IMG/VR virus record: IMGVR_UViG_3300025914_000046
Location: 1 to 25,528 of that record
DNA: 25,528 nucleotides
Direction: 5' to 3' (one strand)
DNA from: a virus
Shown: positions 1,816 to 25,064 of the stretch, piece after piece
How positions within the stretch are numbered: position 1 is the first letter of the stretch
Layout: each line of letters begins with the position of its first letter
Made by a program: the position numbers and the translations under genes
The notes under the pieces: model-generated
The model's input: only the letters and a program-made list of their open reading frames with translations
Database searches by the model: none
What the model was told of the DNA's origin: nothing

Positions 1816-1833
1816 ATTCCCAGCGCTGGGAAT
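1816..1833. repeat. 18-bp palindrome, perfect copy
   Basis: ATTCCCAGCGCTGGGAAT, perfectly self-complementary. It lies 14 bp past the stop of the gene ending at 1847 and upstream of the gene starting at 1777. It belongs to a window-wide family (perfect copies also at 8426, 16569, 17011, 19750, 21296 and 25047). Confidence 0.95.
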
Positions 1834-1846
1834 AAAACCAAAGATT

Positions 1847-2269
1847 TTAAACAGATTTTGAAGTGCTGAACATTTCAAGCTCTAACCTTTCCCCAAAAGC
1901 TTCGGAGTAAGCGGGCATCGAAGTACGATCAATGCTGCGTAACGTAAAAGGGAAATTACGCCCGCCAATCGTGCAATTTCCCGAAGATCCGGGGACAATC
2001 CAAGCTGGCAAAAACTTAGGATTCATTGCGTGTCCGCGATAGATTTTGCTCTGCTGTCCCTGTCCGGGACTGGGAGTAAGTTCTATGCTGTTAATTATGT
2101 ATAAATGTGCCGTTACGGTGAAAGCCTCCCGCCCTGTCGGATTACCAAATTTGTCAATCCCCGTCCCAAGCGACCTATTAAAAACTAATGGGACACTCTC
2201 GTGATCTGCTTTTAAAAAGTTTACACTGGGATGTGTTAAAGCTATTAACTCGCTTAAAGATTGTATCAT
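1847..2269 (-). CDS. Head-tail region protein of unknown family
   Basis: The frame could extend to 2305, but the ATG at 2269 (MIQSLSELIALTH...) is preferred. On the minus strand it is preceded by CAGGAG with an 8-base spacer, the best ribosome site in this part of the window. The product is then 140 residues, strand-rich, with several Gly/Pro turns and no transmembrane segment. It lies in the head operon after the capsid gene, where phages carry head-closure or tail-completion proteins, so a neck or tail-completion role is possible by position only. Its start codon overlaps the start codon of the plus-strand gene at 2268 (shared CATG), and its ribosome site lies inside that gene. Palindrome 1816-1833 follows the stop. 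Confidence 0.65.
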   Translation of the reverse strand: MIQSLSELIALTHPSVNFLKADHESVPLVFNRSLGTGIDKFGNPTGREAFTVTAHLYIINSIELTPSPGQGQQSKIYRGHAMNPKFLPAWIVPGSSGNCTIGGRNFPFTLRSIDRTSMPAYSEAFGERLELEMFSTSKSV

Positions 2270-2645
2270 GGCAATAACTCCTGAAGCTTTCAATCTAAAG
2301 TACAAAACACAATTTAGTCCCGCAATTTATACTGATTGGGTAACTGTAGCCGAAAGTCGTGCTGCGATTTTTCCCCCGCAGTTTCGTGTTTTAGCTACTG
2401 AATATTATTTAGGCTATTTACTGTGCATGACCTCAGCGGAACGTCAAGGTAATGAAGTAAAGCAGTTTGAGGTAAAACCCGAGGGGTATTCGGTGACTTA
2501 CGATACAAGTGGAGCGGGCAAGTGCGATCGGTGGTTGCAATTTTTAAAACAATTAGGATTGTCGGCGGGCGTCCAAATTCCTGAGTTAAAAACTACAACC
2601 GTTCTTTATTCCAACCGCACCGAAAAATTTCGTTATGACTTTTAA
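2268..2645 (+). CDS. Putative head-tail connector-like protein, reversed orientation
   Basis: This 125-residue product resembles short phage head-tail connector proteins (DUF4054 / gp6-like). It has an N-terminal helix with F-x-x-x-Y, a helix over 40-55 with Y-Y-L-G-Y-L-L, a G-Y-S-V-T-Y-D-T-S-G strand segment near 72-82, then a W-L-Q-F-L helix and a strand-rich C-terminus. The match is by overall pattern only. The gene is on the plus strand in a minus-strand operon, yet it fits exactly between its neighbours. Its ATG overlaps the ATG of the gene at 2269 and its TAA (2643-2645) overlaps the TAA of the gene ending at 2642. The upstream sequence has only a weak AAAGA site. No competing minus-strand frame covers 2306-2641, so the gene is probably real. 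Confidence 0.6.
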   Translation: MAITPEAFNLKYKTQFSPAIYTDWVTVAESRAAIFPPQFRVLATEYYLGYLLCMTSAERQGNEVKQFEVKPEGYSVTYDTSGAGKCDRWLQFLKQLGLSAGVQIPELKTTTVLYSNRTEKFRYDF

Positions 2646-3031
2646 ATTTCTCCAGTTTTTAATTGAGTAATTCTGGTATTTAAACTTGTTCTAATTTTAG
2701 TTCGCTGTTCGACTGCGAGCCAACTTTCCAGGGTTGAAATATCCGCAGTGTTGTTGACAAGTTTTATGGCGTCTGCATCTTTGTATTGCAACAAATCAAT
2801 TATTTCTGTGTTAGCTAAAGGGTCGATTGTTGCTGGTTGCTCACCAACAATGTCTAAAGCTCCCACTTCGCTATAACGTTGATAATCAGGGTGAATTTGC
2901 AACTGTTGCAACTCTTCGGGACTTAACTTGTTAGTCCCTGCCGTCAGCAAGATTTGGTCAAACCCTAATCTTGCTGTTTCGTGCATTTTAGGAATGCACC
3001 TGTCAGGGTAAAAAATTACAATTGCGGGCAT
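2642..3031 (-). CDS. Small head-region protein, paralogue of the 1115-1777 product
   Basis: The product has 129 residues. Residues 1-62 correspond to the N-terminal domain of the protein encoded at 1777-1115: FYP at 7-9, I-P near 13, a G-F-D-Q-I-L-L-T-A-G-T-N-K-L segment at 23-36, the H-P-D motif near 47-49, and G-A-L at 57-59. The C-terminal half has helices such as I-I-D-L-L-Q-Y-K-D-A-D-A-I-K and differs from the paralogue. The ATG at 3031 is preceded by GAGG at a good distance. It directly follows the major capsid gene (47 bp), so a capsid-associated or head-completion role is likely, without a family name. Confidence 0.7.
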   Translation of the reverse strand: MPAIVIFYPDRCIPKMHETARLGFDQILLTAGTNKLSPEELQQLQIHPDYQRYSEVGALDIVGEQPATIDPLANTEIIDLLQYKDADAIKLVNNTADISTLESWLAVEQRTKIRTSLNTRITQLKTGEI

Positions 3032-5774: not shown

Positions 5775-5792
5775 ATTCCCATACCTGGGAAT
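5775..5792. repeat. 18-bp palindrome, variant centre
   Basis: ATTCCCATACCTGGGAAT keeps the outer seven bases of each arm but has TACC instead of GCGC in the centre. It lies between the portal stop (5824) and the protease start (5762). Confidence 0.8.
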
Positions 5793-7076: not shown

Positions 7077-7403
7077 ATGGTAACACGCAAGATAGACCAT
7101 AAAAAGGCTAAGGAAAAACAGCGGGACGCTACAATGCTAGATTTGTACCGTCAAGGGCTAACATATCCCCAGATAGGCGATCGCATAGGAATGACCGCAG
7201 AAGGCGTTCAAGCGCGAATTAGAACGCTCAAACAGCACGTTAAGAAACAGGAACCTACCCGCAGTTTGGAGGAATTGGAAGCACTCAGAAACCAAATCCG
7301 CGAACTCAGGAGTCAGGGTAAAGATATGTGGGAGATCGGTCGCGCGATCGGTATCACAAAACCTCAAGTTTACAGACATTTACAAGCAATGGGACTAATC
7401 TAA
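7077..7403 (+). CDS. Small protein with two helix-turn-helix domains
   Basis: The product has 108 residues. Residues 20-52 (L-Y-R-Q-G-L-T-Y-P-Q-I-G-D-R-I-G-M-T...V-Q-A-R-I-R-T-L) and 72-106 (L-R-S-Q-G-K-D-M-W-E-I-G-R-A-I-G-I-T-K-P-Q-V-Y-R) are two homeodomain-like or resolvase-type helix-turn-helix units. They are joined by a charged helix. The N-terminus is very basic. It is probably a DNA-binding regulator and could act on the near-palindrome at 7032-7047 in its own promoter region. A small terminase role is possible in principle, but the gene directly upstream of the large terminase is the better candidate for that. It is the first gene of a plus-strand cassette; its TAA overlaps the next ATG in TAATG. 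Confidence 0.8.
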   Translation: MVTRKIDHKKAKEKQRDATMLDLYRQGLTYPQIGDRIGMTAEGVQARIRTLKQHVKKQEPTRSLEELEALRNQIRELRSQGKDMWEIGRAIGITKPQVYRHLQAMGLI

Positions 7404-8425: not shown

Positions 8426-8443
8426 ATTCCCAGCGCTGGGAAT
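8426..8443. repeat. 18-bp palindrome, perfect copy
   Basis: ATTCCCAGCGCTGGGAAT lies between convergent stop codons (8415 plus strand, 8452 minus strand). This placement fits a 3'-end or transcription-blocking role better than a promoter role. Confidence 0.95.
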
Positions 8444-8451: not shown

Positions 8452-9906
8452 CTAATAGGTCGGGTGTTGGAACGGTCGCCCGACTTTGCCGTCTACGATA
8501 TCTCGGTTGTGAACGAGATCGATACAGGCGAACGCCGCTGCCATTGCCATAATAGTGTCGTCATGCTCGGCGATCGCCCTTCGTTCTTCTTTCGAGAATT
8601 TTTTCATTTCAGAAACGCCAGCCCAAGTTTTAGGAAATTCGATTGTTTCTTCCTCTACCATTAGGGCAAGGCGATCGGTATTGATAATTTTGCTTGACTT
8701 AGTGCTTAACACTTTTTGAATGTTAAGTCCGGGCAATTTTTCCTGTATGTTCTCACAAACTACAGTCCCGCCCGAGTTACTTTCGATGCCAACAATCAGC
8801 TCCGGATACCGCCTAAAATAGGGCGCAAGCGCTCGAATTGATGTCGAGACAGGAGTGTTGTTTTTCCTGTATTCATACGCCAATTTATAAGGGACGCAGC
8901 TCACATCCCAAGCTTGCGCGACAAAGAAATCAGTACCGCCATAATTCGGGTCAATTCCCCACAAGTAGCGGCGTCCGTGGACGGGTAGAGCGAACGAGCC
9001 GATCGCGCACTTATCAACTTTTTCGGAATTGAATAACATTGCCTCTGCTTTTTTGACGTGCCAGTTTCCGTGCAGCAAACGATCGCGGTTGATGCTGTCT
9101 TGTGCCTGTAAATTCGCCACATAACCCGGGTCTGCTGCTAACAATGAAGGGTTATCGGCGATCGTCGCGCCAATAAATGTAAAGCTTTTAGGAAGGCATT
9201 CCCAGTTACCAGAATCGGGGAATCTTTCTTTTAACTCTTCAGGAGTATCGCCCCAAATAACAACATCATCTTTGACAATAAAGTACCTGATAACACCTAT
9301 TTTTTCGGGGTCAGGATACCCATCTTTGCCTATCCACCAAGCCACCAATACAGCAACCCAACTGTCTGCATCTGGGTTGCAGGTTGCTATCATTTTAGGT
9401 TTGAATCCGTGGGGCGATCGCAACCTAGAAAGCAAGTAAAAAAACTGTTTTTTTGTAAAGTGAGTTACCTCATCAAAACCGATGAAGGGCAATTGAGCGC
9501 CCTGCCAATCATCAAGGTCTTTTTCATGCTGCAAGTGAGAGAACCTGACGGTTGCTCCCGATGGGAATGTCCACTCTAGGCGCGTTTGATGTGCCTTTGC
9601 GCCCCTCATGGGATACCAACGCATAGATTCATCCCACAGCCCGCCCTCGTTCATTATTTCCGGGTACGTGCGACGCAAAATTACACCGCTGTACTTGCCG
9701 TTACCCGTTAGCTTCGCCGCAGCCCAAATCAGAGCGGTACTCTTACCCGGGCCCGCGCCCCCGCCAAACACAATCACGTCCGCCTCTGATGTCAGCATCA
9801 TTTTTTGTTTGGGATGAGGCGGCGGAAAAGGCGATATTTTTTTACGTTTTGCGCGGTTAGCCTCTGCCTGTTTTTTAAGGGCGAGCGCTTTAGCTAGGGT
9901 TGGCAT
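8452..9906 (-). CDS. terL: Terminase large subunit (ATPase-nuclease)
   Basis: The product has 484 residues. It is the packaging motor that cuts concatemers and drives DNA through the portal. Walker A G-G-G-A-G-P-G-K-S is at 48-56. Walker B P-F-I-G-F-D-E is at 140-146, with D145 and E146 coordinating Mg and hydrolysing ATP. The coupling motif A-T-C-N-P-D is near 174-179. The RNase H-like nuclease begins with W-G-I-D-P-N-Y-G-G-T-D, giving candidate Asp319. A second acidic site is in E-H-D-D-T-I-M-A-M near 450. The length is normal for the family. It overlaps the upstream gene by 17 bp, which supports that gene being the small subunit. Palindrome 8426-8443 follows the stop. Confidence 0.93.
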   Translation of the reverse strand: MPTLAKALALKKQAEANRAKRKKISPFPPPHPKQKMMLTSEADVIVFGGGAGPGKSTALIWAAAKLTGNGKYSGVILRRTYPEIMNEGGLWDESMRWYPMRGAKAHQTRLEWTFPSGATVRFSHLQHEKDLDDWQGAQLPFIGFDEVTHFTKKQFFYLLSRLRSPHGFKPKMIATCNPDADSWVAVLVAWWIGKDGYPDPEKIGVIRYFIVKDDVVIWGDTPEELKERFPDSGNWECLPKSFTFIGATIADNPSLLAADPGYVANLQAQDSINRDRLLHGNWHVKKAEAMLFNSEKVDKCAIGSFALPVHGRRYLWGIDPNYGGTDFFVAQAWDVSCVPYKLAYEYRKNNTPVSTSIRALAPYFRRYPELIVGIESNSGGTVVCENIQEKLPGLNIQKVLSTKSSKIINTDRLALMVEEETIEFPKTWAGVSEMKKFSKEERRAIAEHDDTIMAMAAAFACIDLVHNRDIVDGKVGRPFQHPTY

Positions 9907-10369: not shown

Positions 10370-10410
10370 CGGCTATTACCCCAAAACTAATTTTAGGTTA
10401 GCACGATCGA

Positions 10411-10441
10411 CAAAAAACGATCGCCTTTGGGGGCGATCGTT
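10411..10441 (-). terminator. Intrinsic terminator built from HIP1-type sequence
   Basis: On the minus strand ACGATCGCC (10440-10432) pairs with GGCGATCGT (10426-10418) around a 5-base loop and is followed by TTTTTT (10417-10412). It lies 29 bp after the stop of the SSB-like gene and ahead of the terminase genes, so it probably separates early from late transcription. Confidence 0.8.
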
Positions 10442-10469: not shown

Positions 10470-11579
10470 TTAGAAAGGGATATCAGAATCTGGTTGTATA
10501 ACGTGGCTTGGCGAAAATGCAGCTAACAAAGCTTGTTCTACCGCCTTAAATACTTCGTTATTTACTCCTTTTTTAGCCAATCCTCTTAGTCTAGAAACCA
10601 CTGAATGTTGAGGGTATTTTGACTCAATCAACTCTAGGGCTAAAGTACAAACAACTTGATTTTTAACGTTTATACTCAACTGGTCGAATTCAGTTGCACC
10701 CACTCGATCCAGCACTTTTTGCATCCGATCGCCATCAATTTTCTTATTGTTGACTATGTAAGCTTGATCGAGTGAAAGCATTATTTCAGAGTAAGCCATT
10801 CCTATTTCTTCCTCTGTCATGAATTCTTGATCGTTTTCCTGGGTTACGGCTTCGACTGTGCTATACGCCGTCGCTTGCAGCCCTCTGGGCGCGTTTGGAG
10901 GCTGTATTGGGTAACTTACGCCCGATCGCACGTTTTGACCTGTTGAACGTCCTGGTTGCTGTGTCTGGGCGGGTGTTCTGGTGCTGCTATTTCTGGTTTG
11001 TTCTTCCAGCGCATCATCATCCATAAACTCCGAATAACCCGGCACGTCTTCAAGCTTGACCTCACAGCCGTTGCACCTGCTAAGTACCCTGCGAATTATT
11101 TCTCGCCAATCGTGATCATTTCCACCCGGGAAATACGGCATTTCTACCCTGTTTGCAAACATATTGCAGTAGAGAATAGTGCCTGCATTTCTTGACTGGG
11201 TTCGCGTTGGATCTGCTGGTGTTGGGTTGATTCCTATCTTGCCTTTCAATTGCTCATCAGTCATTGCCGATAGCCCCCACAGCATCCCTTTACCAAATAA
11301 AGAGCTAAGACCCGTTTCAAAATGGTAGACCTGATCGTCTTCATCCGCCAGAATTAAAGCCATTTTCCAGCCTTCTTTGCCCCCGCGTTCTGCCTGGTAA
11401 ATACTCAAACCCAATAACCCGCCTTTGGCACTCTCGAAACTAGGGGAATCTATGTTTACGTTTCGACCATCTACTATTTTGTACCACAGCGAACCGTACT
11501 TTCGATTGCAGTAAATAACCGTTTTTCCCAGCCTGTAAGGTAAAAAACCCGATTTTTTCCTTTCTATTCCATCACTCAT
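10470..11579 (-). CDS. Putative single-stranded DNA-binding protein with SSB-type tail
   Basis: The frame is open to 11729, but the ATG at 11579 (MSDGIERKK...) is preferred because AGGAG lies 9 bases upstream and a promoter lies just beyond. The product has 369 residues. The N-terminal domain (about 1-120) has the alternation of an OB-fold phage SSB, with strands around W-Y-K-I-V-D-G, W-K-M-A-L-I-L-A-D-E-D-D-Q and H-F-E-T-G-L-S-S-L. A Thr/Gln/Pro-rich linker spans about 195-240. A helical domain (about 245-355) precedes the last residues P-D-S-D-I-P-F. D-I-P-F is the classical SSB tail that docks replication proteins. The helical insert is unusual for an SSB. A role in element replication or recombination fits the nearby replication genes; the family assignment is by pattern. 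Confidence 0.55.
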   Translation of the reverse strand: MSDGIERKKSGFLPYRLGKTVIYCNRKYGSLWYKIVDGRNVNIDSPSFESAKGGLLGLSIYQAERGGKEGWKMALILADEDDQVYHFETGLSSLFGKGMLWGLSAMTDEQLKGKIGINPTPADPTRTQSRNAGTILYCNMFANRVEMPYFPGGNDHDWREIIRRVLSRCNGCEVKLEDVPGYSEFMDDDALEEQTRNSSTRTPAQTQQPGRSTGQNVRSGVSYPIQPPNAPRGLQATAYSTVEAVTQENDQEFMTEEEIGMAYSEIMLSLDQAYIVNNKKIDGDRMQKVLDRVGATEFDQLSINVKNQVVCTLALELIESKYPQHSVVSRLRGLAKKGVNNEVFKAVEQALLAAFSPSHVIQPDSDIPF

Positions 11580-11727: not shown

Positions 11728-11745
11728 ATTCCCAGCCCTGGGATT
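11728..11745. repeat. 18-bp palindrome, imperfect copy
   Basis: ATTCCCAGCCCTGGGATT has changes in the centre and in the right arm. It lies 8 bp after the stop codon of the antirepressor-like gene at 11754. Confidence 0.75.
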
Positions 11746-11753: not shown

Positions 11754-12461
11754 TTAGATTTTAGGTAGCCTCAGTTGGTCGTTGCCCCCAAAGTGCCGAG
11801 CGTAGCCTATCTCAAAATCTTCGCGGGTCGGTGCGCCGTCTAAACACGCCACCAGCTCGCGTATATATGGGGTTAAACGCTTCTTGATGTCCTTGTTGAT
11901 GTATTGGTGAATTTTATCAGGTCGCACCCCGTTAACGGGCGGATTTAGCCTGTTAATTTTGCAGGCTTCCTCTGGCGTGAACTGCGAGTAGATGTACGTC
12001 CAGTAAAACTGCGCCCCAAACCACTTAAAGGCGCGATCGCAGAAGTCCTTATCGTAGAACGCCTGCCACGGGTCGGGACGGTCAAGTATCCGCGAAAGCT
12101 TGTCTACCGGGGCGATCGCGTCGCTGGTCACTTTGTACCCTGCCAGTTGGTGCATATACACGGTCGCACCTACTTTGCCCATTGCCCGTGCTAGTTCTGG
12201 GTTATCCTCAAACAACCAATCAAAAACTAAGTCAGCGGGAATCAAGTGTACACCCTGTAATCCTCCTGGCGTCTGCACTTCAGCCTTTTTTAGGTCTTTT
12301 TTGTGAACCCCTTTGTAACCTCGACTTAAGCGATTGGCTAAAGCATTTTTGGCTAGATTTGCCATCCGTGAATACCCCGCTAAAGTGGCGAACGCTTCGC
12401 CCGTCTGCGTATTGATTACCAATTCGATGCCATTGCTGTCGTAACGTGTTAAACTTGTCAT
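11754..12461 (-). CDS. Antirepressor-like protein with P63C-type C-terminus
   Basis: The product has 235 residues from the ATG at 12461 (MTSLTRYDSNG...). The frame also allows a GTG at 12494, but that codon falls inside a strong 5' hairpin and neither start has a good ribosome site. The N-terminal part (I-E-L-V-I-N-T-Q-T-G-E-A-F-A-T...L-A-N-R-L-S near 10-50) resembles cyanobacterial phage antirepressor domains. These also carry the T-P-G-G-L-Q-G-V-H-L-I-P-A-D-L-V-F-D-W-L segment seen here near 64-83. The C-terminus (W-F-G-A-Q-F...R-P-D-K-I-H-Q-Y-I-N...R-L-T-P-Y-I-R-E-L...F-G-G-N-D-Q-L-R-L) resembles the P63C domain linked to phage antirepressors. It may relieve repression of the element. Domain names rest on memory of the families. 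Confidence 0.55.
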   Translation of the reverse strand: MTSLTRYDSNGIELVINTQTGEAFATLAGYSRMANLAKNALANRLSRGYKGVHKKDLKKAEVQTPGGLQGVHLIPADLVFDWLFEDNPELARAMGKVGATVYMHQLAGYKVTSDAIAPVDKLSRILDRPDPWQAFYDKDFCDRAFKWFGAQFYWTYIYSQFTPEEACKINRLNPPVNGVRPDKIHQYINKDIKKRLTPYIRELVACLDGAPTREDFEIGYARHFGGNDQLRLPKI

Positions 12462-12490
12462 AGGTTTGCTTAGTTGCGAGAAGTGAACTG

Positions 12491-12550
12491 CCACGGGTAA
12501 AAGGGACGTTTGCCCGTCCTTTGTGGCGTAAATATACTATACCACACCAC
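12491..12550 (-). promoter_or_regulatory. Promoter motif and 5' hairpin of the antirepressor-like gene
   Basis: On the minus strand the shared motif GTGGTATAGTATATT (12545-12531) is followed within 7 bases by CCACAAAGGACG. Together with CGTCCCTTT...GTGG this folds into a hairpin over 12526-12491, with stems CCAC/GTGG and AAAGGACG/CGTCCCTTT (one bulge). The AAAGGA element and the GTG at 12494 would both be paired, so translation from them would be blocked unless the hairpin opens. Confidence 0.5.
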
Positions 12551-13017: not shown

Positions 13018-13048
13018 GAGGGGGGGTCTAGGGGGGGGTGTCTGGGGG
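13018..13048 (+). repeat. G-run cluster, potential G-quadruplex
   Basis: Runs of G7 or more, G8 and G5 are separated by TCTA and TGTCT. The piece GGGGGTCTAGGGGG is shared with the second cluster at 13296-13327. At least four runs of three or more G on one strand allow quadruplex formation. Confidence 0.7.
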
Positions 13049-13166: not shown

Positions 13167-13190
13167 AATTAATTTTGTTATTAATTAAGA

Positions 13191-13817: not shown

Positions 13818-13876
13818 CCTAGCCTAGGTGCGCCATTAAGGCACGATCGCGCCTCCTAACGTACAATCTAGCCATC

Positions 13877-14839
13877 CTAGTATTGATAGTGCCTAACCTT
13901 AAGATATGCCCAAGGTGTCGCTTCGCCCAAGGTAGACGCGACGATCGCGCCTCCTGAAAGGTAGATCATAGGCACGAAGACACGCGCACTCGAAAGGCTA
14001 AGGCTAAACATAAGGTGGCTATAAATGCTTAGGTTGGCTCCACTTCCAATGACGCCACCTTCGCTTGTGCCTTTGCCACTCGTGCCTGCATAGCGTGTAG
14101 TGCCTTGCGCTACAAGCATCTCGACTAATTGCGTATTGGTGGCGACTACATAGCCCTCGAAGTGGTACTCGCCTGCTAGCAACGTTAGCTCGCGTGTCGT
14201 GGCGTTCCATGTGGCGCGATCGCTCGCCATGTTCAGCGTCTGGATCAATGGCAGCGTACTCTCGACCTCGTTTGGGAATGTGATATTGGCTGATCCAGGC
14301 GCGATCGTCGCTTGTAGGACTATATCTCGCATTCGAGTCCCGCTGTTGAGTGGTGGTGTCGCGAAGCTTACAACTCCCGCAGGATCTCGATATAGATAGT
14401 TGCTGGCACTTGTCGCCGCTGAGGCGATCGCCTGTAACGTGGGGCTATATGGCTGATAAGTCGTGTTGGTTATGCTATCGAGCTTTGTATTGATCCCCGC
14501 AACACGATCGCGCTCCACATTGGTCGCGCTTGATAGTGGTGTTAGTCCCGTTTCGATCGTAGTGGCTTGATTGTCGGCTGCACTCGACTGAGAACGCTCT
14601 GCCTGCATGGCGTTCCTAAGGCTTTCTGCTGATGCTTTGAGCGCGATCGCGTCCCCTAATTGCGTTATACGTGAGGCGATTTGCCCTTGGATCGCGACGA
14701 TCGCCTCCAATTCCTCACTTATAGCAAGACTTTGATTGAGCAACCCTTGTGCTGGTACGTTCAGCACTGCTGCGCTGTTGGGCTGCCCTGGATCTAGGCG
14801 GGTCACTGGGGCGTTACTGGCGATCGGCGTTAAAGGCAT
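13877..14839 (-). CDS. Putative fibre or adhesin-like structural protein
   Basis: The product has 320 residues. Residues 1-130 are Ala/Gln/Ser/Thr-rich and helical, with a heptad-like stretch (I-S-E-E-L-E-A-I-V-A-I-Q near 41-52) that suits a trimeric stalk. The middle (T-N-T-T-Y-Q-P-Y-S-P-T-L-Q-A-I-A-S near 126-142) is a common fibre junction motif. The C-terminal 150 residues are strand- and Gly/Ser-rich (L-L-A-G-E-Y-H-F-E-G-Y-V-V-A and ending A-Y-L-K-V-R-H-Y), compatible with a C1q/TNF-like or head-fibre tip. A host-binding or capsid-surface role is likely but not proven. The gene lies apart from the head operon and has its own promoter with an overlapping inverted repeat (14877-14910). Confidence 0.5.
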   Translation of the reverse strand: MPLTPIASNAPVTRLDPGQPNSAAVLNVPAQGLLNQSLAISEELEAIVAIQGQIASRITQLGDAIALKASAESLRNAMQAERSQSSAADNQATTIETGLTPLSSATNVERDRVAGINTKLDSITNTTYQPYSPTLQAIASAATSASNYLYRDPAGVVSFATPPLNSGTRMRDIVLQATIAPGSANITFPNEVESTLPLIQTLNMASDRATWNATTRELTLLAGEYHFEGYVVATNTQLVEMLVAQGTTRYAGTSGKGTSEGGVIGSGANLSIYSHLMFSLSLSSARVFVPMIYLSGGAIVASTLGEATPWAYLKVRHYQY

Positions 14840-14929: not shown

Positions 14930-14947
14930 ATTCCCAGGGCTGGGAAC
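14930..14947. repeat. 18-bp palindrome, variant copy
   Basis: ATTCCCAGGGCTGGGAAC, with a changed centre and one changed end base. It starts 9 bp beyond the stop of the gene at 14957. Confidence 0.8.
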
Positions 14948-14956: not shown

Positions 14957-15397
14957 TTATACCCAACTCAAGCACGTAGGTAGAGCGATCGGATCGTCTT
15001 GTTCATCGCGGGGGTGGGGCATTCCACTTACCCAAAATTGCCTGGTCTTAAAGAAGGGATTAAAATGCAGTGTAGCCAATTGCCCGTTGCACTTGCTCAG
15101 CGCCCAGGCACAAGCCTCTGGCTCGTCGGCGTCTTCCCAAGATTTAGGCATCCCAATTACAAACCCTTGACGGTAGAGGAAATCGGCGACTGTGTGAAAA
15201 TTATTGCGACGGTGGTCGTTGCCCCACTCGCTCCCGTCAGGCATCACGGGGATCACTTGCTCCCAAGCTTCGCGCCTTTCGGTAATGGCGTCTAGGTATT
15301 CACCCATCTGGTTAAACATTGTCACAACATCTTGGTAAGCCGGCCATGTGCCGAGGTAAGCTGCGATCGTCTCTGGGGTTAGGTTAGGGTGTGTCAT
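14957..15397 (-). CDS. Small accessory protein, unknown
   Basis: The product has 146 residues, is acidic and contains no membrane segment. It starts M-T-H-P-N-L-T-P-E-T-I-A-A-Y-L-G, has W-E-Q-V-I-P-V-M-P-D-G-S-E-W-G near 45-59, and a D-E-P-E-A-C-A-W-A-L segment near 90-99. I do not recognise the family. It is the last of the four small accessory genes (14957-16923). These are separated by similar intergenic modules containing the shared promoter motif and palindromes. AAAGGAAA lies about 10 bases upstream of the ATG and could serve as ribosome site here. Confidence 0.65.
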   Translation of the reverse strand: MTHPNLTPETIAAYLGTWPAYQDVVTMFNQMGEYLDAITERREAWEQVIPVMPDGSEWGNDHRRNNFHTVADFLYRQGFVIGMPKSWEDADEPEACAWALSKCNGQLATLHFNPFFKTRQFWVSGMPHPRDEQDDPIALPTCLSWV

Positions 15398-15421: not shown

Positions 15422-15490
15422 TTCTATGCTATACTACCGTGCCAGCGCCGGGAATTCCGCAAACTTTTAAAAGTTTATTCCCGCCGCAGC
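15422..15490 (-). repeat. Intergenic composite module, copy 1 (degenerate)
   Basis: In minus-strand order it holds a degraded palindrome remnant (15490-15477), the 16-bp palindrome AAACTTTTAAAAGTTT (15476-15461), and GCGGAATTCCCGGCGCTGG. The promoter motif CGGTAGTATAGCATAGAA follows (15439-15422). It corresponds closely to the modules at 16515-16586 and 16957-17028. Confidence 0.8.
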
Positions 15491-15911: not shown

Positions 15912-15943
15912 TTTTACACTATGCTACCGCAAGTGCTGGGGAT
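15912..15943 (-). promoter_or_regulatory. Divergent copy of the shared promoter motif
   Basis: On the minus strand GCGGTAGCATAGTGTAAAA follows a decayed half palindrome (ATCCCCAGCACTTG). The arrangement is the same as in the neighbouring intergenic modules but more degraded, and it lacks CAAAGGAAA. Confidence 0.45.
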
Positions 15944-16488
15944 CACGCGGCGTTTTGTTCACGGGGATCGAGGAGTACGATCTCGATCCCGTACCGATTA
16001 CGCATCTGCTGTTGATAGTGCCAGATCATGCGGTGAGGGATGCTGACTTGGGCAACTCGGTTCTCAGTGACTGTCTGGCGATCGGTAACTCGTCCCAACA
16101 TTAGAGCGTGAGAGGCATAAGCCATGTAGTAGCCATTGCTGCCGTTAGAGTTGGGCTGGTGGATCATGACGATCGCCCCTTGCTCGTGGCTGTCCGCCCA
16201 TTGACGGGCTGTGTCGCTTACCGGAGCGCTCTTCAAGAAAATCTGATGGAAGAGGATCTGATCCTGAGTTGTATCCGAAGCCTCTTTGAGTGGCACTTCG
16301 ATGTTTACCACGGTCTTTGTAAGCTTGGCTAACACTTTACGCGCCTCTGTTTTCAGGGCTGAGTGCTTAAGGTTCAGCTTGCCTTCGTAATGACCATTTG
16401 CCCGCAGGGCTTTGAGTGTAGTCTGTAGTGTTCTGTAGCTTCCTGCGATCGCGTTCTTGAGGTCGTTGGCGTTAGGTGTGAGTGTCAT
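15943..16488 (-). CDS. Accessory protein with possible MutS domain I-like fold
   Basis: The product has 181 residues. The N-terminal 80 residues are helical and basic. Residues about 106-176 run A-I-V-M-I-H-Q-P-N...G-Y-Y-M-A-Y-A-S-H-A-L-M-L-G, then Q-V-S-I-P-H-R-M-I, and end R-Y-G-I-E-I-V-L-L-D. This order (a hydrophobic strand, an aromatic F-Y-E-like motif, a D/H-A helix, an I-P strand, a helix, a final strand) parallels the mismatch-recognition domain I of MutS. It also aligns with the neighbouring protein at 16923-16594. The MutS Phe-x-Glu that wedges into mismatches is not conserved (Y-Y-M here). No ATPase domain is present. The assignment is tentative; alternatively this is an unrelated phage alpha-beta domain. 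Confidence 0.6.
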   Translation of the reverse strand: MTLTPNANDLKNAIAGSYRTLQTTLKALRANGHYEGKLNLKHSALKTEARKVLAKLTKTVVNIEVPLKEASDTTQDQILFHQIFLKSAPVSDTARQWADSHEQGAIVMIHQPNSNGSNGYYMAYASHALMLGRVTDRQTVTENRVAQVSIPHRMIWHYQQQMRNRYGIEIVLLDPREQNAA

Positions 16489-16514: not shown

Positions 16515-16586
16515 GTTATATTATACTACCATACCAGCGCTGAGAATTCCGCAAACTTTTAAAAGTTTATTCCCAGCGCTGGGAAT
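16515..16586 (-). repeat. Intergenic composite module, copy 2
   Basis: In minus-strand order it holds the perfect 18-bp palindrome (16586-16569), AAACTTTTAAAAGTTT (16568-16553), and GCGGAATTCTCAGCGCTGG. The promoter motif ATGGTAGTATAATATAAC follows (16532-16515), then AAAGGAAAAC. It is nearly identical to the module at 16957-17028. Confidence 0.92.
16569..16586. repeat. 18-bp palindrome, perfect copy
   Basis: ATTCCCAGCGCTGGGAAT starts 7 bp beyond the stop of the gene at 16594. It also forms one end of the composite intergenic module. Confidence 0.95.
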
Positions 16587-16593: not shown

Positions 16594-16923
16594 TTAGTCA
16601 ATGAACTCGATACTTCCGCCCTGCGATCGCACGGCTTCCGCCAACTTGGTCGCGACAGAAACGTGGATGCTCAGCACGGGGATGTCGGCTCCTCCCATGC
16701 TGTGATATTCGAGCATGAGTCCCGATCGCGCCGCTAAGTTGCAGGCATGAGATCCATAAGTGTAATACCGAGAATGATAGTGTCCCAAGATCATTACAAT
16801 ATCCGCTTTCTGGTCTTTTTTCCAGAACAGCCAGCGCTTAGCAGCCGGGGGTAAGTAGATAGACTCAATGAGTGCCAAGGTTTCATCGACTGAGAGAAAT
16901 GTTGAGACTGGGGTGAGTGTCAT
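16594..16923 (-). CDS. Small orphan MutS domain I-like protein
   Basis: The product has 109 residues. Residues about 39-108 read D-I-V-M-I-L-G-H-Y...R-Y-Y-T-Y-G-S-H-A-C-N-L-A-A-R-S-G-L-M-L, then I-P-V-L-S-I-H-V-S-V-A-T-K-L-A-E-A-V and G-G-S-I-E-F-I. This tracks MutS domain I, whose consensus order is a L-L-F-x-x-G-D-F-Y-E strand and turn, a D-A helix with A-A-x-x-L, an I-P-M-x-G-x-P strand, a x-L-x-x-L-V helix and a G-x-x-V-A-I strand. The Phe-Glu pair is replaced (Y-Y-T), so mismatch wedging is unlikely. The neighbour at 16488-15943 has the same pattern, and both begin M-T-L-T-P. A separate AAAGGAAC ribosome site lies close to the ATG, after the promoter-linked AAAGGAAAAC. Confidence 0.65.
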   Translation of the reverse strand: MTLTPVSTFLSVDETLALIESIYLPPAAKRWLFWKKDQKADIVMILGHYHSRYYTYGSHACNLAARSGLMLEYHSMGGADIPVLSIHVSVATKLAEAVRSQGGSIEFID

Positions 16924-16956: not shown

Positions 16957-17028
16957 GTTATCCTATACTACCATATCGGCGCTGAGAATTCCGCAAACTT
17001 TTAAAAGTTTATTCCCAGCGCTGGGAAT
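16957..17028 (-). repeat. Intergenic composite module, copy 3
   Basis: In minus-strand order it holds the perfect 18-bp palindrome (17028-17011), AAACTTTTAAAAGTTT (17010-16995), and GCGGAATTCTCAGCGCCG. The promoter motif ATGGTAGTATAGGATAAC follows, then AAAGGAAAAC. It differs from copy 2 at only a few positions. Confidence 0.92.
17011..17028. repeat. 18-bp palindrome, perfect copy
   Basis: ATTCCCAGCGCTGGGAAT starts 3 bp beyond the stop of the methyltransferase gene and is immediately adjacent to AAACTTTTAAAAGTTT. Confidence 0.95.
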
Positions 17029-17031: not shown

Positions 17032-18006
17032 TTAAGGCATTGTTTTGAGTAGTGAAGCGTACCAAAGAGGCGGAACGCTATACCCAAAGCCCGATCCCGT
17101 GGTTTTAGGGCTGTTGGGGTACTTAAAGGTCGGGGGGAAGCCTGCGAGTCTGCTATAGGCTTGTAGATTGAGATTGAGCCACCGATCGCCCTCTGGGAGA
17201 TAGAGGCACGAAACGTTGGAGCGCCCATTAAAGGCAGAGTCCCTAAATTTGGACTTAAGCATTGTGGGGATCGGTTCAAACCATCCCCGCGCCTTTGGGA
17301 CTTTGCCGCTTGTTACGCGCTCGACATACAGCGGCGAGGGCTTGTGTTCCGGATACTTGTTGCGATTTTTATAGTACCAGGCAGCAGCAGAGGTTAGCTG
17401 GCGCTCGGTAGGCACGATCGGCTCGAACGTGGGGATCAAGTCCTCAATCACCTTGTACCAACTGATCCCCGCAGGCTGGATGGGCGATCGCCAGTCGCCA
17501 GCGAGGGATGCTGTCACGATCAATCGTTTCCTAGATTGACCAAAGGGCGCTCCAATGCAGATGGTTTTGTGGTTGAAAGTATAGCCCAGGGTCAGGGCGC
17601 GATTTTTGATATACTCGAACTCTGGGGATCGGGCATATTGGGGAACCTGTTCGAGCGTGAAGTTTTCCGGTCTGCCGTGGGCGATCGCATCCATAGCGGC
17701 GATCGCCATTGGCATATTCGCATGACTAGGACTCCCAAACTGGGCAATAGAGAAGTCCGCACACACGGGACTAATGTGGGCAAGCTTAGCCCCGATCGGG
17801 AGTCCCGGGAAACCCCACATCGCGTAATCCTGCACGGTCATCAAATAAGTGCGATCCCAGCCGTTGAGCTTGTGGATCTCGATAAAGGCTTCCGACAGCA
17901 TCCGATCGCTAGGATCGCACTCAACTCCCAACACGGGGTCGATCCCCGCTAACTCCATCCCGCACTTAATCCCACCGATCCCCGAAAATAAGTCCCATCC
18001 GATCAT
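17032..18006 (-). CDS. C5-cytosine DNA methyltransferase
   Basis: The product has 324 residues and transfers methyl from S-adenosylmethionine to cytosine C5. Motif I D-L-F-S-G-I-G-G is at 5-12. Motif IV is S-P-V-C-A-D-F-S at 79-86, with catalytic Cys82; the usual P-P-C is P-V-C. Motif VI has L-E-Q-V-P at 118-122 in place of E-N-V. Motif VIII is Q-S-R-K-R at 157-161. The target-recognition region is about 190-265, and motifs IX-X are L-A-G-F-P-P-T-F and G-Y-S-V-P-P-L. AGGATGAGAC supplies a ribosome site. It follows the gene at 18051 by 45 bp with no consensus promoter, so the two are probably co-transcribed. No restriction partner is adjacent. The target is unknown; a role in self-protection or in matching the host HIP1-site methylation is inference. 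Confidence 0.85.
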   Translation of the reverse strand: MIGWDLFSGIGGIKCGMELAGIDPVLGVECDPSDRMLSEAFIEIHKLNGWDRTYLMTVQDYAMWGFPGLPIGAKLAHISPVCADFSIAQFGSPSHANMPMAIAAMDAIAHGRPENFTLEQVPQYARSPEFEYIKNRALTLGYTFNHKTICIGAPFGQSRKRLIVTASLAGDWRSPIQPAGISWYKVIEDLIPTFEPIVPTERQLTSAAAWYYKNRNKYPEHKPSPLYVERVTSGKVPKARGWFEPIPTMLKSKFRDSAFNGRSNVSCLYLPEGDRWLNLNLQAYSRLAGFPPTFKYPNSPKTTGSGFGYSVPPLWYASLLKTMP

Positions 18007-19749: not shown

Positions 19750-19767
19750 ATTCCCAGCGCTGGGAAT
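19750..19767. repeat. 18-bp palindrome, perfect copy
   Basis: ATTCCCAGCGCTGGGAAT starts 4 bp beyond the stop of the helicase gene and upstream of the promoter of the 19660 gene. Confidence 0.95.
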
Positions 19768-19771: not shown

Positions 19772-21220
19772 TCAGAAGTCGAGTTCAAGGGCAAGCTGCC
19801 GCCATTCGCCATTAGAGCTAATCTGGGAGCCATCGGTGAGGAGCCAATGGTCTAGCGCGGCGCTGTGCTTGAACGATCGCCGCCAAAGCAGGGGCGGGGT
19901 ATAGCCAAAGGTTTCATAGAAGCGAACGCGGGCTGCTGAGGGACGATCGCCCCGCTCGAAAGCGGCGACCAACTCTTCCTCATAGAAGGCTTTGTGGATG
20001 CGCTCAGTTCCCGACAGCAAGGCGAATGGGATACCTTCAGGCGCGACCGTGCGTTTGGTTTTGAGATCAAACTCACAGCCACAAGCGCAATGGGTAGCGC
20101 TAATGTACGATCGGATGTCGCAGTTCTCGTCAAGGCAGGGCTTTGTCGGAACTTCCCCGGGCTGAAAGTCTGGCAATTCGATGTCATCAGGAGTGTAAAC
20201 CAACTCCTCAATCCTGCCAAGACGATCGACACAGCCAGTCAAATCATAAACGGAAAAGTGAGTTTTTTTAGTCCCATCCCTATACGTGCAGGGGCGGGCA
20301 AAACGCCCCATCACTTGAACGTAACTAGAGTGAGAATCGGGATCGATCGCGAGGATTAAGTTAGTGGCGCAAGGGAGATCGATCCCCTCCCGAAGCACTT
20401 GACAGCTTACCAAAACGGGGATCTCCTCATTCCTAAACCGCTTGAAAATTTCCTCTCTCTTATTGGTTCCGCCCGTGACACAGATTGCCTCAATCCCTTT
20501 CTCGTTGAATCGTTCTGCCATTGCCCGCGCTTTCGGGACAGATGGGGAAAAGACGATCGTCGGGCGTTTATCAGTTAGGCTATAGATAAATAGGATGTAT
20601 TCCGGATCGAATATCATCTGACCAGTAATAGCATTAGGCGTCACTGCGTACACCGGACGCACCAAATGTCCCATGTCGATTAGCTGGGCGATCGTTGGCG
20701 CAAATACAATATTTTCCCGAAGGAACAACTCCCCGAGCGAGGTGTACTTGTCGTTACGGCGCGGCGTTGCTGTTACCCCGATCGTTCGGTTCTTATGCTT
20801 CCAATATGTATTTACGTCCGGAATCCAATCCCGGATACATTTAGGAAAGGCTGACAAATGCGCCTCATCCAGAAACGTATAATCCGGTCGCAGCCAATCG
20901 ATCCCTCTTGTGGCGATCGCCTGGTAAGTCGCGACCTGAATTTGGGCGCGTCGGGACTCCCGCATTGTTCCGGCGATCGCCCCAACATCCAATCCCCAAT
21001 AGTCCTCTAACTCTCGAATCGTTTGGATCACTAACGACTTTCTAGGGACAATCACTAGCGTCCGGACATCCCTTTTTCGGGACACATCGTTGACTATCTT
21101 TCCCATGATTGCGGTCTTGCCCGCACCTGTGGGAGCAATCAATAAAGGGTCTTCGCCTTTGGCTAAAATCTCCTTTACCTTATTTGCACATTGCATTTGA
21201 TACGATCGCAACTTTCTCAT
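19772..21220 (-). CDS. SF2 DNA helicase (DEAH type)
   Basis: The product has 482 residues. Motif I A-P-T-G-A-G-K-T is at 29-36. Motif II D-E-A-H is at 118-121 and motif III V-T-A-T-P is at 149-153. R-P-T-I-V-F-S starts the second RecA domain near 219, and V-L-R-E-G-I-D-L-P is motif V near 275-283. Motif VI Q-V-M-G-R-F-A-R is at 302-309. The C-terminal part has Cys361, Cys366, Cys377, Cys379 and Cys381, probably a zinc ribbon. The layout matches phage and plasmid helicases of the UvsW/RecG-like or type III restriction-like SF2 group. It probably unwinds DNA during replication or recombination of the element. It follows the replication initiator by about 330 bp and has its own extended -10 promoter. 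Confidence 0.88.
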   Translation of the reverse strand: MRKLRSYQMQCANKVKEILAKGEDPLLIAPTGAGKTAIMGKIVNDVSRKRDVRTLVIVPRKSLVIQTIRELEDYWGLDVGAIAGTMRESRRAQIQVATYQAIATRGIDWLRPDYTFLDEAHLSAFPKCIRDWIPDVNTYWKHKNRTIGVTATPRRNDKYTSLGELFLRENIVFAPTIAQLIDMGHLVRPVYAVTPNAITGQMIFDPEYILFIYSLTDKRPTIVFSPSVPKARAMAERFNEKGIEAICVTGGTNKREEIFKRFRNEEIPVLVSCQVLREGIDLPCATNLILAIDPDSHSSYVQVMGRFARPCTYRDGTKKTHFSVYDLTGCVDRLGRIEELVYTPDDIELPDFQPGEVPTKPCLDENCDIRSYISATHCACGCEFDLKTKRTVAPEGIPFALLSGTERIHKAFYEEELVAAFERGDRPSAARVRFYETFGYTPPLLWRRSFKHSAALDHWLLTDGSQISSNGEWRQLALELDF

Positions 21221-21295: not shown

Positions 21296-21313
21296 ATTCC
21301 CAGCGCTGGGAAT
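21296..21313. repeat. 18-bp palindrome, perfect copy
   Basis: ATTCCCAGCGCTGGGAAT lies about 30 bp upstream of the helicase promoter and 234 bp past the replication gene stop. This copy is closer to a promoter than to a stop codon. Confidence 0.95.
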
Positions 21314-21546: not shown

Positions 21547-24500
21547 CTAGGAAGGCGCAGGAGGCTCCCAGAATAGGTTGTGACAAGGAATTAGCCAGAC
21601 CTCGCCCCTAATGCTCACTTTAAAGCCATTTCCTTCGCAATCTAGAAGGCGAGCTTCCTCAAATTGTGGGCGATCGGCGCGATTTGTTTGTACCCACACA
21701 GTAACAATTTCAGAATCGCGAGGTTTGTCCCCCTCCTCACCCGGTCGCGCCGTTTGAGTGCCTTCGCCCCCGATCGCGCCCTGGGAGCCAGTTTTGCCCG
21801 ATCGCGCCCCGTTTTCCTCATTTTCTGGGGGTGTCTGGGGTTCTGTCTTATCTTCCTCCGTTGTTTTATAAATATAGTCCGTACCCGTGACCTCTGGCAT
21901 AGTATAGGTTTCTGGCAATTTATTGCCATCAAACCCTTCTATTTGCGTTTGATGTAAATTAGGAGTATCGGGAATGGCTGAAAGTCTATCGGGGTCTAGG
22001 TTTGGGCGATCGCCGCCGTCGAATTCTAGGGAATCTTTCGATAACCTTTGCCTAAATCTGCGATCGACATAAGAAAATAGCTCCTCCCAGTTGTCGGGGT
22101 GGCACTTGGCGCGATCGTACCAATAGGTATAAACGCGGGTTCCTTCAACTCCGGGAAGGGGCTGGGGGAGTCTAATTTGCTTTTTGCAAGGTTTAACTCC
22201 GAACAAGGGCATCAGAGTGCGGTTGATAAAAGTGAGGTTGGTCGAGTGTCCGGGATGACCAATTACTCTAGAGATCGTTTTCTTCCACCGCACAGCGCGT
22301 ACAAATTCCACAACGTCGGCGCTCTGGTCGCTGTAGACGTGTCCGTCTAGGAACTTGTGGAAGCCCAGAGAGTGCATGATCTTGACAAACAGCCAGCGAT
22401 CGGTCTTGACGCGATCGGGAATAAAGAAATCGAGGTCGCTCTTATCCGCCCATTGCTGCGCCTTTAGCGCCTCTGACTCCTCAGAATGAGTAAGTAGCCA
22501 AAAAAGGTCTAACTGGCTGCTTAATTCGCGTTCTCGGTAGCGGATTCTGTGTATAAAGTCCACCGACCACAGTGGCGACTGTTGCAGCCCCGGAAATCGG
22601 CTCAGCAGTTTGTGCTTGATTACCATGCACCGTTCCTGCCAGTTTGCATCAAGACTCTTGCCCAGATCCTCAGCTTGCTTGTCCGTAATGTCTGGGGCGT
22701 TGAATATCTGCTGGCACTCAATTAGCTGGACTTCGACCTTGGCTTCCTTGTAGGCAGTAGAGTCCACTTGATGCGCTTGTACCTTCGAGGGCTTCATGCC
22801 CATCCCTTCAAAAGCGTAATAGAGAAACGAACGGTAATTGCGTTTCTCTAAATACTCGATCGCCTGCATCTTTGCCCACGCCTGAATGTGGGGACTATCT
22901 AATTGCGCTCTGAGGGTAGCCATCACTTTGTCGCCTATGTCCCCAGCGAAAACACCCGCCTCTGCGGTGATGCGGGTTGCCAAGTCCTCCAACAAGATTT
23001 GCTCAAATGCTCCAGCATTGCGCTTGTGGTCAATACCAATTTGAGGTGCAAAAACAATGACGCGATCGGGGTTGCGGACGCGGCGGGACATTTGCACCGC
23101 TTCATTGATTCCGACAACTCCTGCAAACCAGCAGAAGACGGTATCAAACTTGCCTTTGTTGTTGATAGAAACTCCACTCTCGACAGTAGGAGTGCAAGCG
23201 ATCCAGTTGACGCGGTTGGGGTTCGCGTCTATGTATGCGTCGGGATCTTTCAAGAAAGCGCGAACCCACTTTTCCGTAACAGTCTTAGAAGTGATCAAAA
23301 GCCCGTCGCCCCTGAGTTTCTGTAACTGTTCTGCGATCGCCTCCGCCTTTGTAATGCTATCTACAACTACGGCGGGCAATTTAGCCTCTAGAATTTGCAG
23401 GTTTATCCACTCGTCAACTTGCTTTTTTGTCAAACCATCATCATCAACAAAAAACAATGGCGGCGTTGGGCGATCGCTCTTGTTGTCATATTTTGTTACT
23501 AATTTTGTCGGGTCGATTTGCTCTACATATTCAACAAGCCAATTGGTCATGTTTCCATCCATCAAAATGATCCGGGAGCATATTTTAACAATGTACTCGA
23601 ATCTTTTGAGGATATCCAAACGTTTTCCTCTCAGGGTAGAACTGCACAACAGGTGTTTAATTCCTGTCATGGACTCATCCAAAATAACGGTCGCCCCGAT
23701 AAATATTTCCGGGGGAAGCTTCAGTATTGAATCAAAGCAAAGTGCAACTCGCAAATTTGGATCTTTAAATCTCCCATACGCATGATGCAAGTCCAAATGA
23801 TCGAAGTCCCACCTGTCGCACAGTTGCTCCTGAAGGGAATTTCTGTGTCCGATCGACCCCATCACGCCATCGGCAGTGGCGACATTTTTGACCTTGCCGT
23901 TTTTCTCGACCTTTTTGACTTTAGCAACTTTCTTCGCTACCCATTCAGATTTGCCGCTGTTGAGATCCGATCGCACGACCGTTAGTGTCCCGGGTGCGGG
24001 TTCCGGGGCATCAAAGAAATAGTCCCGCGTCTGTCCGCTGGTAGAAGTAAACTGTCGGTAAGCTCTCCACAGGCGCGTGTGTTCGTATTCAGTCGCAGAC
24101 TTCGCATCCCGCAAAGCAGTCTCGATTACTTCAAATTGACCTGCCACAATGTAATCGTCCGCGCCTTTGTGCGGGCCCGGCAACTGTGCAATCCTTACGG
24201 TCGCCCGACGGAACTGACGGGACAGTATCGCCGCTGCCTTAAACTCGACAGTTGCCTCAAACCCCATGCCGGGACGGTAATCAAAAACTATGCAGATGCT
24301 GCGTCCGGCGCTATCGAATTCCTTTAACTCCTCTCGCAAAAGCCGCTCAACAACCTTTCCCCAGTCGTCGCGAATCGCTCTAAAACCCGTAAATATTCCC
24401 GGAAGTGCGATCGCTGGAATGCCCCGACTAATCAGCGACGCCGCCTTCTTTTCCCCTTCAACAACAACAACGGGCAATCCGTAAAACTTTACCCATTCCC

Positions 24501-24912
24501 AGTAGCTCATCTCTGGGGGCTTGGCGACTCCAAAACGCTCCTGGGCTTTCTTTATTGCCTTGCGTCCCGGCTTGATAAAAGTTATAGGAGTGATGCGTCC
24601 CAGTGCTGATATGTAGCGCTTGGGCTTCCCTTCCTCATCCAAGTAAGGCGACCCGCCCAGCCAACGCATCCGATCGTTACATACCCAACCGAAAAAGTCC
24701 TCGACCTTGTTAAACTTTCGGGCCCAGCCCCTAGGCATACACCCGTTATTCAGTTGACCCGCGTCCGGGTAGGCTAACTCGAAAGCTTCTTTTCCCCAGA
24801 TGGGGGCAAAGTTTAATGCTTGGGTTTCTTCATCAATTCCCGATCGATCGAGATCGGCTTTAATGAATTTTTTGATCTCTTCAAGCTTGACTAACTCTGC
24901 TAAGTATGTCAT
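21547..24912 (-). CDS. Plasmid-type replication initiator, CyRepA1 / DUF3854-like
   Basis: The product has 1121 residues. Residues about 145-260 form a Toprim-like DUF3854 domain (V-V-V-V-E-G-E-K-K-A at 148-157, I-V-F-D-Y-R-P-G near 208-215, K-G-A-D-D-Y at 249-254). A helicase-like part follows: Walker A-like L-N-S-G-K-S at 317-322, Walker B V-I-L-D-E-S at 409-414, C-T-P-T-V-E-S-G-V-S-I at 573-583, and Q-M-S-R-R-V-R at 607-613. Residues about 1000-1060 are low-complexity and acidic or Pro-rich, before a strand-rich C-terminus. This primase-helicase layout is that of cyanobacterial plasmid initiators. It implies autonomous replication, so the phage may persist as a plasmid. The ATG is far from AAAAAAGGAAA (about 24 bases), so start usage may depend on leader structure. 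Confidence 0.8.
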   Translation of the reverse strand: MTYLAELVKLEEIKKFIKADLDRSGIDEETQALNFAPIWGKEAFELAYPDAGQLNNGCMPRGWARKFNKVEDFFGWVCNDRMRWLGGSPYLDEEGKPKRYISALGRITPITFIKPGRKAIKKAQERFGVAKPPEMSYWEWVKFYGLPVVVVEGEKKAASLISRGIPAIALPGIFTGFRAIRDDWGKVVERLLREELKEFDSAGRSICIVFDYRPGMGFEATVEFKAAAILSRQFRRATVRIAQLPGPHKGADDYIVAGQFEVIETALRDAKSATEYEHTRLWRAYRQFTSTSGQTRDYFFDAPEPAPGTLTVVRSDLNSGKSEWVAKKVAKVKKVEKNGKVKNVATADGVMGSIGHRNSLQEQLCDRWDFDHLDLHHAYGRFKDPNLRVALCFDSILKLPPEIFIGATVILDESMTGIKHLLCSSTLRGKRLDILKRFEYIVKICSRIILMDGNMTNWLVEYVEQIDPTKLVTKYDNKSDRPTPPLFFVDDDGLTKKQVDEWINLQILEAKLPAVVVDSITKAEAIAEQLQKLRGDGLLITSKTVTEKWVRAFLKDPDAYIDANPNRVNWIACTPTVESGVSINNKGKFDTVFCWFAGVVGINEAVQMSRRVRNPDRVIVFAPQIGIDHKRNAGAFEQILLEDLATRITAEAGVFAGDIGDKVMATLRAQLDSPHIQAWAKMQAIEYLEKRNYRSFLYYAFEGMGMKPSKVQAHQVDSTAYKEAKVEVQLIECQQIFNAPDITDKQAEDLGKSLDANWQERCMVIKHKLLSRFPGLQQSPLWSVDFIHRIRYRERELSSQLDLFWLLTHSEESEALKAQQWADKSDLDFFIPDRVKTDRWLFVKIMHSLGFHKFLDGHVYSDQSADVVEFVRAVRWKKTISRVIGHPGHSTNLTFINRTLMPLFGVKPCKKQIRLPQPLPGVEGTRVYTYWYDRAKCHPDNWEELFSYVDRRFRQRLSKDSLEFDGGDRPNLDPDRLSAIPDTPNLHQTQIEGFDGNKLPETYTMPEVTGTDYIYKTTEEDKTEPQTPPENEENGARSGKTGSQGAIGGEGTQTARPGEEGDKPRDSEIVTVWVQTNRADRPQFEEARLLDCEGNGFKVSIRGEVWLIPCHNLFWEPPAPS

Positions 24913-24983
24913 AATTTATTCATAGAAATTGTTATTTCCTTTTTTCTGCGAGCGATCGTTCCTAGGCGACAGCTCGCATTTTT
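24909..24983 (-). promoter_or_regulatory. Leader of the replication gene: hairpin and four-codon minicistron
   Basis: On the minus strand TGCGAGC (24978-24972) pairs with GCTCGCA (24953-24947), followed by GAAAAAAGGAAA. An ATG at 24923-24921 opens a four-codon frame (M-N-K-L) whose TGA overlaps the initiator ATG (ATGA). The only good ribosome site serves this minicistron, not the initiator. A longer frame of 41 codons (25041-24916) also ends 3 bases before the initiator ATG. On the plus strand the same hairpin is followed by TTTTT and would be an intrinsic terminator. Confidence 0.45.
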
Positions 24984-25046
24984 GTGTACGTGTTTCCCAG
25001 TGTACCGTCATCTCGCCATTTTGGGAACCCCTGCAACACATAATCT

Positions 25047-25064
25047 ATTCCCAGCGCTGGGAAT
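25047..25064. repeat. 18-bp palindrome, perfect copy
   Basis: ATTCCCAGCGCTGGGAAT lies in the leader of the replication gene, between promoter motif 25125-25139 and the start codon. Transcription from that promoter must pass through it. Confidence 0.95.

Follow-up and report, generated by a model that had tools for sequence, protein, structure and literature searches.

The window analysed here is the whole 25,528-nucleotide stretch of IMG/VR virus record IMGVR_UViG_3300025914_000046 (positions 1 to 25,528), and the element under study is an 18-bp palindrome, ATTCCCAGCGCTGGGAAT, which it carries in seven exact copies and three variants. The surrounding genes encode a Mu-type portal, a major capsid protein, a cement protein, an S78 protease, the terminase large subunit (TerL), a C5-methylase, a helicase and a CyRepA1-family replication protein. 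This gene content, along with the cyanobacterial octamer HIP1, present 29 times, marks the window as a fragment of a cyanophage. Large CyRepA1-family replication proteins are typical of cyanobacterial plasmids, and the window possibly comes from a phage-plasmid. The palindromes are a real, selected and clade-wide family of sites, whose reader is most likely a phage protein that acts in gene control across the genome.

Relatives of the window were recovered with the motif itself and by alignment of TerL, while single-query scans with CyRepA1 or the capsid protein returned nothing. A scan of IMG/VR with the 18-mer yielded four contigs, one of them rich in HIP1 (G001, 62.6 kb) and carrying 20 matches at no more than three mismatches, mostly of the form ATTCCCAACACTGGGATT. 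A second scan with this form yielded G002 to G007, and reversed-pattern controls gave zero. The relatives comprise G001, about eight shorter contigs and one 66.3-kb genome (G003) that looks complete because it has a 93-bp terminal direct repeat. Window proteins are 40-71% identical to syntenic proteins of the relatives (TerL 71%, portal 67%, helicase 64%, capsid 63%, CyRepA1 60%). G001, G002, G004 and G007 are 97-99% identical where they overlap and are not independent, so that the independent members are G003, G005, G006 and the window. Among named phages no close relative was found, whether the query was the replication protein of the window, its portal or 20 kb of G003.

The description of the element as a palindrome in the original prediction needs correction. 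The unit under selection is the ten-base core TCCCA-N4-TGGGA, and the full 18-bp symmetry is particular to the window. The core is found 148 times in seven related contigs, several of which overlap, and ten times in the window; any other spacer gives zero or one occurrence, leaving four bases as the sole enriched spacing between half-sites. The centre is GCGC in the window and mostly ACAC in the relatives, where the consensus is asymmetric and carries a 3' extension (TAATTCCCAACACTGGGATTAATC). The tally in related phages, from a weight-matrix scan, is 45 sites in G003, 40 in G001 and 25 in G006. Core-site density ranges from 0.36 to 0.64 per kb across members, about one site per 1.5 kilobases.

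The motif tracks the phage lineage. Core sites are present in contigs whose TerL is 64-72% identical (three in L182, one in L089, four in L189, all outside open reading frames (ORFs)) and nearly absent from the next group out, L190-L197, at 53% TerL identity, where L193 has one isolated match and the remaining seven fragments have no match. The four site centres of L189 are all different. This contig is nearly free of HIP1 and hence probably comes from another host, yet the motif is kept all the same. The palindrome is not a general host repeat: the exact 18-mer has seven scattered matches among 84,980 species genomes (11.3 million contigs), none of them cyanobacterial by title, a search in which the ACAC form was not covered.

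Placement of the sites is strongly biased towards the regions between genes. All ten positions given in the original prediction proved exact, and its expectation of no chance copies agrees with a mean of 0.01 matches at no more than three mismatches over 100 dinucleotide shuffles. The centres of all ten window sites lie outside called genes, as had been claimed, in a window that is 18% intergenic (p=4e-8). The same is true of 41 of the 45 sites in G003, 37 of 40 in G001 and 25 of 25 in G006, with genomes 18-26% intergenic and p between 4e-8 and 8e-23; these placement counts are approximate, since genes were called with a simple caller of our own. An 11th window match, at 402, has three mismatches and a broken core and lies inside a gene. 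The original prediction placed most copies within 30 bp after a minus-strand stop codon; seven of the ten sit 3-13 bp past a stop, one of them between convergent stops as described. The other three are the site at 5775, 31 bp past a stop, and those at 21296 and 25047, which are promoter-side and have no well-supported stop close by. The sites, the composite modules that contain some of them and two of the genes are as follows, with palindromes given without strand:

1816..1833, perfect palindrome: 13 bp past the stop of 1847-2269 (minus strand) and immediately upstream of the TATAAT preceding 1115-1777 (minus strand); the counterpart lies 7 bp past the orthologue stop in G001, G003, G005 and G006.
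5775..5792, variant ATTCCCATACCTGGGAAT: the prohead protease gene starts 12 bp further on; the counterpart lies 7 bp ahead of the protease start in G001, G003, G005 and G006 and is present also in L182 and L189.
8426..8443, perfect palindrome: between the convergent stops at 8415 (plus strand) and 8452 (TerL, minus strand); the counterpart, L189 3210, is at the TerL stop with convergent genes on either side.
8452..9906, minus strand: TerL, 71% identical across the clade.
11728..11745, variant ATTCCCAGCCCTGGGATT: 8 bp past the stop of 11754-12494 (minus strand).
14930..14947, variant ATTCCCAGGGCTGGGAAC: 9 bp past the stop of 14957-15397 (minus strand) and 90 bp ahead of the start of 13877-14839 (minus strand); the counterpart lies 64-66 bp ahead of the orthologue start in G001, G003 and G006.
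15443..15482, minus strand: composite module of a degenerate site, AAACTTTTAAAAGTTT and a second degenerate site, ahead of 14957-15397 (minus strand).
16535..16586, minus strand: composite module of a degenerate site (TGAG variant, adjoining TATAAT), AAACTTTTAAAAGTTT and a perfect site, ahead of 15943-16488 (minus strand).
16569..16586, perfect palindrome: 7 bp past the stop of 16594-16923 (minus strand).
16977..17028, minus strand: third copy of the composite module, ahead of 16594-16923 (minus strand).
17011..17028, perfect palindrome: 3 bp past the stop of the C5-methylase gene 17032-18006 (minus strand); the counterpart overlaps the methylase stop in G001, G003 and G006.
19750..19767, perfect palindrome: 4 bp past the stop of the helicase gene (19772-21220, minus strand), with a TTGACA/TATGAT promoter about 35-58 bp beyond; the counterpart lies past the helicase stop in G001, G002, G003 and G006.
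21296..21313, perfect palindrome: between the CyRepA1 and helicase genes, the helicase start lying ~75-100 bp downstream; the same interval holds one or two sites in G001, G003 and G006.
21547..24912, minus strand: CyRepA1-family replication protein of plasmid type, 59-61% identical in G001, G002, G003 and G006.
25047..25064, perfect palindrome: the CyRepA1 start is 134 bp downstream; the counterpart lies 121-123 bp upstream of CyRepA1 in G001, G002, G003 and G006.

For eight of the ten window sites (1816, 5775, 8426, 14930, 17011, 19750, 21296 and 25047), comparison by hand thus places a counterpart at the corresponding gene boundary of one relative or more. Decayed copies had also been proposed near 15440, 15930, 16534 and 16977. 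Those near 15440, 16534 and 16977 are real and make up half of a 40-bp module, CAGCGCTGGGAATTCCGCAAACTTTTAAAAGTTTATTCCC, which occurs three times in the window at no more than two mismatches, while the copy near 15930 was recovered by no scan. Read on the minus strand, a -10-like box, a Shine-Dalgarno-like stretch (AAAGGAAA) and a start codon come after the modules at 16535 and 16977.

Conservation at orthologous places extends beyond these individual counterparts. The ten core bases are intact in 29 of 37, 18 of 21 and 20 of 24 comparisons with flank identity of at least 0.65, against a null of 0.20-0.34 when the mask is shifted into the flanks (for 29/37, null 0.195, p=2e-14). In tandem intervals, sites are closer to the stop than to the start (p=0.0016, window and G003), with the upstream stop at a median of 6-28 bp. 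Summed over interval types, sites occur in 15 of 21 convergent, 63 of 103 tandem and 16 of 29 divergent intervals. Hairpins with a U-tract lie 10-70 nucleotides past the stop at 32 of the 80 3' ends that carry a site and at 15 of the 70 that lack one (Fisher p=0.02), an excess which indicates that the sites tend to mark the boundaries of transcription units. The minus strand at 10402-10440 has a GC-rich hairpin, with a run of T after it, ~30 bp past the stop of the 10470 gene, and the relatives have both palindrome and hairpin there. The idea suggested by this hairpin, that the palindrome stands in for an intrinsic terminator, was set aside, as the relatives have both and the sites co-occur with terminators. 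An activator at a fixed distance from the -10 box was also rejected; the distance is ~52 bp by hand for several window sites and scattered in relatives.

The sites could be read as RNA or as DNA. A short stem-loop beyond the stop codon, with a part in mRNA stability, mRNA processing or termination (3'-end hairpins had been raised in the original prediction), would suit the short distance to the upstream stop, the TCCCA/TGGGA core stem with its 4-nt loop and the company of U-tract terminators. This reading is disfavoured and considered unlikely. No T5 run follows any of the 76 tandem sites, and a T4 run follows only three; a T-T mismatch at positions 2/17 is present in 24 of the 45 G003 sites and belongs to the commonest form in the relatives; a TGAG variant, which breaks a central pair, is retained at orthologous places between relatives; sites are also found in divergent regions and upstream of CyRepA1; and no Rfam family matches the site. 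The asymmetric consensus is randomly oriented, pointing with transcription in 53 cases and against it in 44, and the ACAC centre is kept in relatives regardless of the transcribed strand. At four places (G003 3414, 9980 and 35173; G006 29890) the centre is inverted relative to a relative within conserved flanks, which for G003 3414 against G006 are 87% identical. A loop that is conserved despite random orientation and inversions is more likely to be read as double-stranded DNA, and the evidence points to a protein site on double-stranded DNA rather than an RNA hairpin.

The clade thus carries a motif of fixed spacing, placed between genes at transcription-unit boundaries, selected at orthologous positions and indifferent to orientation. 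The favoured explanation, given about one chance in two (roughly 0.5), is that the sites are double-stranded DNA targets of a single protein, encoded by the phage and most likely a dimer, which recognises two inverted TCCCA half-sites four bases apart and exerts control genome-wide. Such a protein would occupy tens of boundaries at once and thereby control transcription across the genome. Sites that overlap promoters (for example 1816, and the degenerate copies adjoining TATAAT at 16535 and 16977) would be ordinary operators for it, whereas at stop or start codons the bound protein would form a roadblock between adjacent units or insulate them from each other. The system would resemble stoperators while being independent of orientation through its palindromic site, and the clade-specific centre, GCGC in the window and ACAC in relatives, may give each lineage its own specificity.

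Several observations weigh against this explanation. The visible promoter is often downstream of the site, so that a bound protein would not obviously silence it, and the many sites adjoining real U-tract terminators make a pure termination role look redundant. No binder has been recognised. The candidates in G003 are five KilA-N proteins, one small KorA-like helix-turn-helix (HTH) protein and a zinc-ribbon HTH protein encoded upstream of CyRepA1, all of them unproven; of the last, the window has only a remnant. Neither an integrase (among the G003 proteins scanned) nor a classical repressor came to light, and lysogeny is accordingly not established. The KorA-like match is weak, below the family cut-off, and is seen in three relatives, while the zinc-ribbon HTH gene precedes CyRepA1 in G002, G003 and G006. 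At the right edge of the window, 25250-25330 reads as the C-terminal end of this zinc-ribbon protein, with the remainder missing or altered. The KilA-N protein at 45928-46626 of G003 and the window protein at 11754-12494 share a common C-terminal domain (61% identity over 118 residues) and differ in their N-terminal halves. The double-HTH protein at 7077-7403, which the original prediction had singled out, was dropped as a binder for the clade: at E 1e-3 nothing in the relatives matches it, and the gene in its place in G003 and G005, by synteny, does not obviously encode an HTH protein. A regulator of LuxR type as in phages A-1 and N-1 was likewise sought and gave no match.

Other readings accept the DNA site and differ on its use. 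The sites may belong to a DNA-organising protein of the phage, whether nucleoid-like or engaged in topological insulation, partition or packaging, and so serve architecture or segregation instead of gene control. The near-regular density in every member, the apparent lack of a need for a promoter, convergent intervals being occupied about as often as tandem or divergent ones, and the plasmid type of the replication gene favour this role, which is nevertheless rather doubtful: it does not require avoidance of coding sequence or abutment of stop codons, and no ParA/ParB-like or KorB-type protein has a Pfam match among the G003 proteins scanned, the window being an incomplete genome. A mobile or recombinogenic short palindrome, either a repeat like the repetitive extragenic palindromic (REP) or miniature inverted-repeat transposable elements or a linker for cassette swapping, could explain the promoter-palindrome cassette found three times in the window and the centres inverted in place. 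It is improbable given that orthologous positions are kept across phages with 60-70% protein identity and that the exact 18-mer is absent from cyanobacterial chromosomes by title; as for a recombination linker, synteny breakpoints are no nearer to sites than to other intergenic positions (p 0.09-0.59). Strict stoperators of mycobacteriophage type, that is, direction-dependent sites of an immunity repressor that blocks elongation, would share the 20-45 dispersed intergenic sites per genome and the lineage-specific consensus. They are very improbable here, the sites being pseudo-palindromic rather than asymmetric, random in orientation and naturally inverted, with no repressor or integrase found.

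Stoperators are nonetheless the nearest analogue that has been characterised. In cluster A mycobacteriophages (L5, Bxb1, TipsytheTRex), 20-30 intergenic stoperators are spread genome-wide with a consensus for each lineage; they are asymmetric, point along transcription and cease to function when turned round (PMC6550527, PMC9283540). The repressor that binds them is monomeric. The likeness noted in the original prediction holds for the phage-wide, intergenic and regulatory-looking layout, with 45 sites in 66-kb G003 and 40 in 62.6-kb G001. It does not extend to identity, because stoperators are asymmetric and direction-dependent and the palindrome sites, with dyad symmetry and an indifference to orientation, are therefore not members of that class; they may still work like stoperators. 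Intrinsic terminators and REP elements are likewise palindromes close to gene 3' ends. Unlike such terminators, the present sites lack a U-tract and separate U-tract hairpins exist, and unlike repeats of the REP or HIP1 type, the exact 18-mer is not a host chromosome repeat. The KorA/KorB operators of IncP plasmids are short palindromes too, which recur across a replicon and are recognised by a global regulator. The sites resemble them in this repetition; the clade differs in having no KorB/ParB-type protein found and only the weak KorA-like match.

The closest layout is that of Nostoc phages A-1 and N-1, which have 43 and 21 dispersed intergenic motifs of inconsistent direction that were proposed to be stoperators (Chenard et al. 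2016, PMC4916379). The A-1 palindrome, AGAGT-N-ACTCT (AGAGTNACTCT), occurs 25 times in the initial 50 kb of that genome, with 24 copies outside called ORFs and eight overlapping a stop codon. As in the present clade, there are tens of copies between genes with a direction not tied to them. The sequences are unrelated: TCCCAN4TGGGA has no copies in 50 kb each of A-1 and N-1, and only the helicase and one small protein match among called proteins. In addition, CCCCCGGAGTCA occurs 37 times within 50 kb of A-1 (L180), and CCCCCGGAATCA 31 times in N-1. It is tentatively conceivable, though on balance doubtful, that these unrelated cyanophage lineages (the TCCCAN4TGGGA clade, and A-1 with AGAGTSACTCT) independently evolved a palindromic, direction-free site, embedded at stop codons and present at most unit boundaries, which a phage protein reads to insulate or silence genes genome-wide.

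Some further features of the window stand apart from the sites. The stretch at 13000-13860 is GC-poor and repetitive (poly-G runs GGGGGGTCTAGGGGGG, and ATTAATTAA repeats), followed by ~280 bp in which CCTA/TAGG and CTAT/ATAG words predominate, and it has no protein family match. The protein at 10470-11579 is conserved in the clade (~42%) and ends in SDIPF, resembling the acidic tail of single-strand DNA-binding proteins. Upstream of CyRepA1, at 25065-25260, inverted AAACCCTTA and TAAGGGTTT words, suggested in relatives too, may belong to an origin of replication.

Detailed knowledge of operator or insulator systems that span a genome comes only from actinobacterial phages, in which the site has to face the polymerase. 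A symmetric cyanophage version, if true, would demonstrate that this design of control does not depend on directionality. The GCGC and ACAC forms in one clade offer a ready contrast for studies of repressor-operator specificity, and the palindrome sites could help to recognise and class this group of cyanophages in metagenomes.

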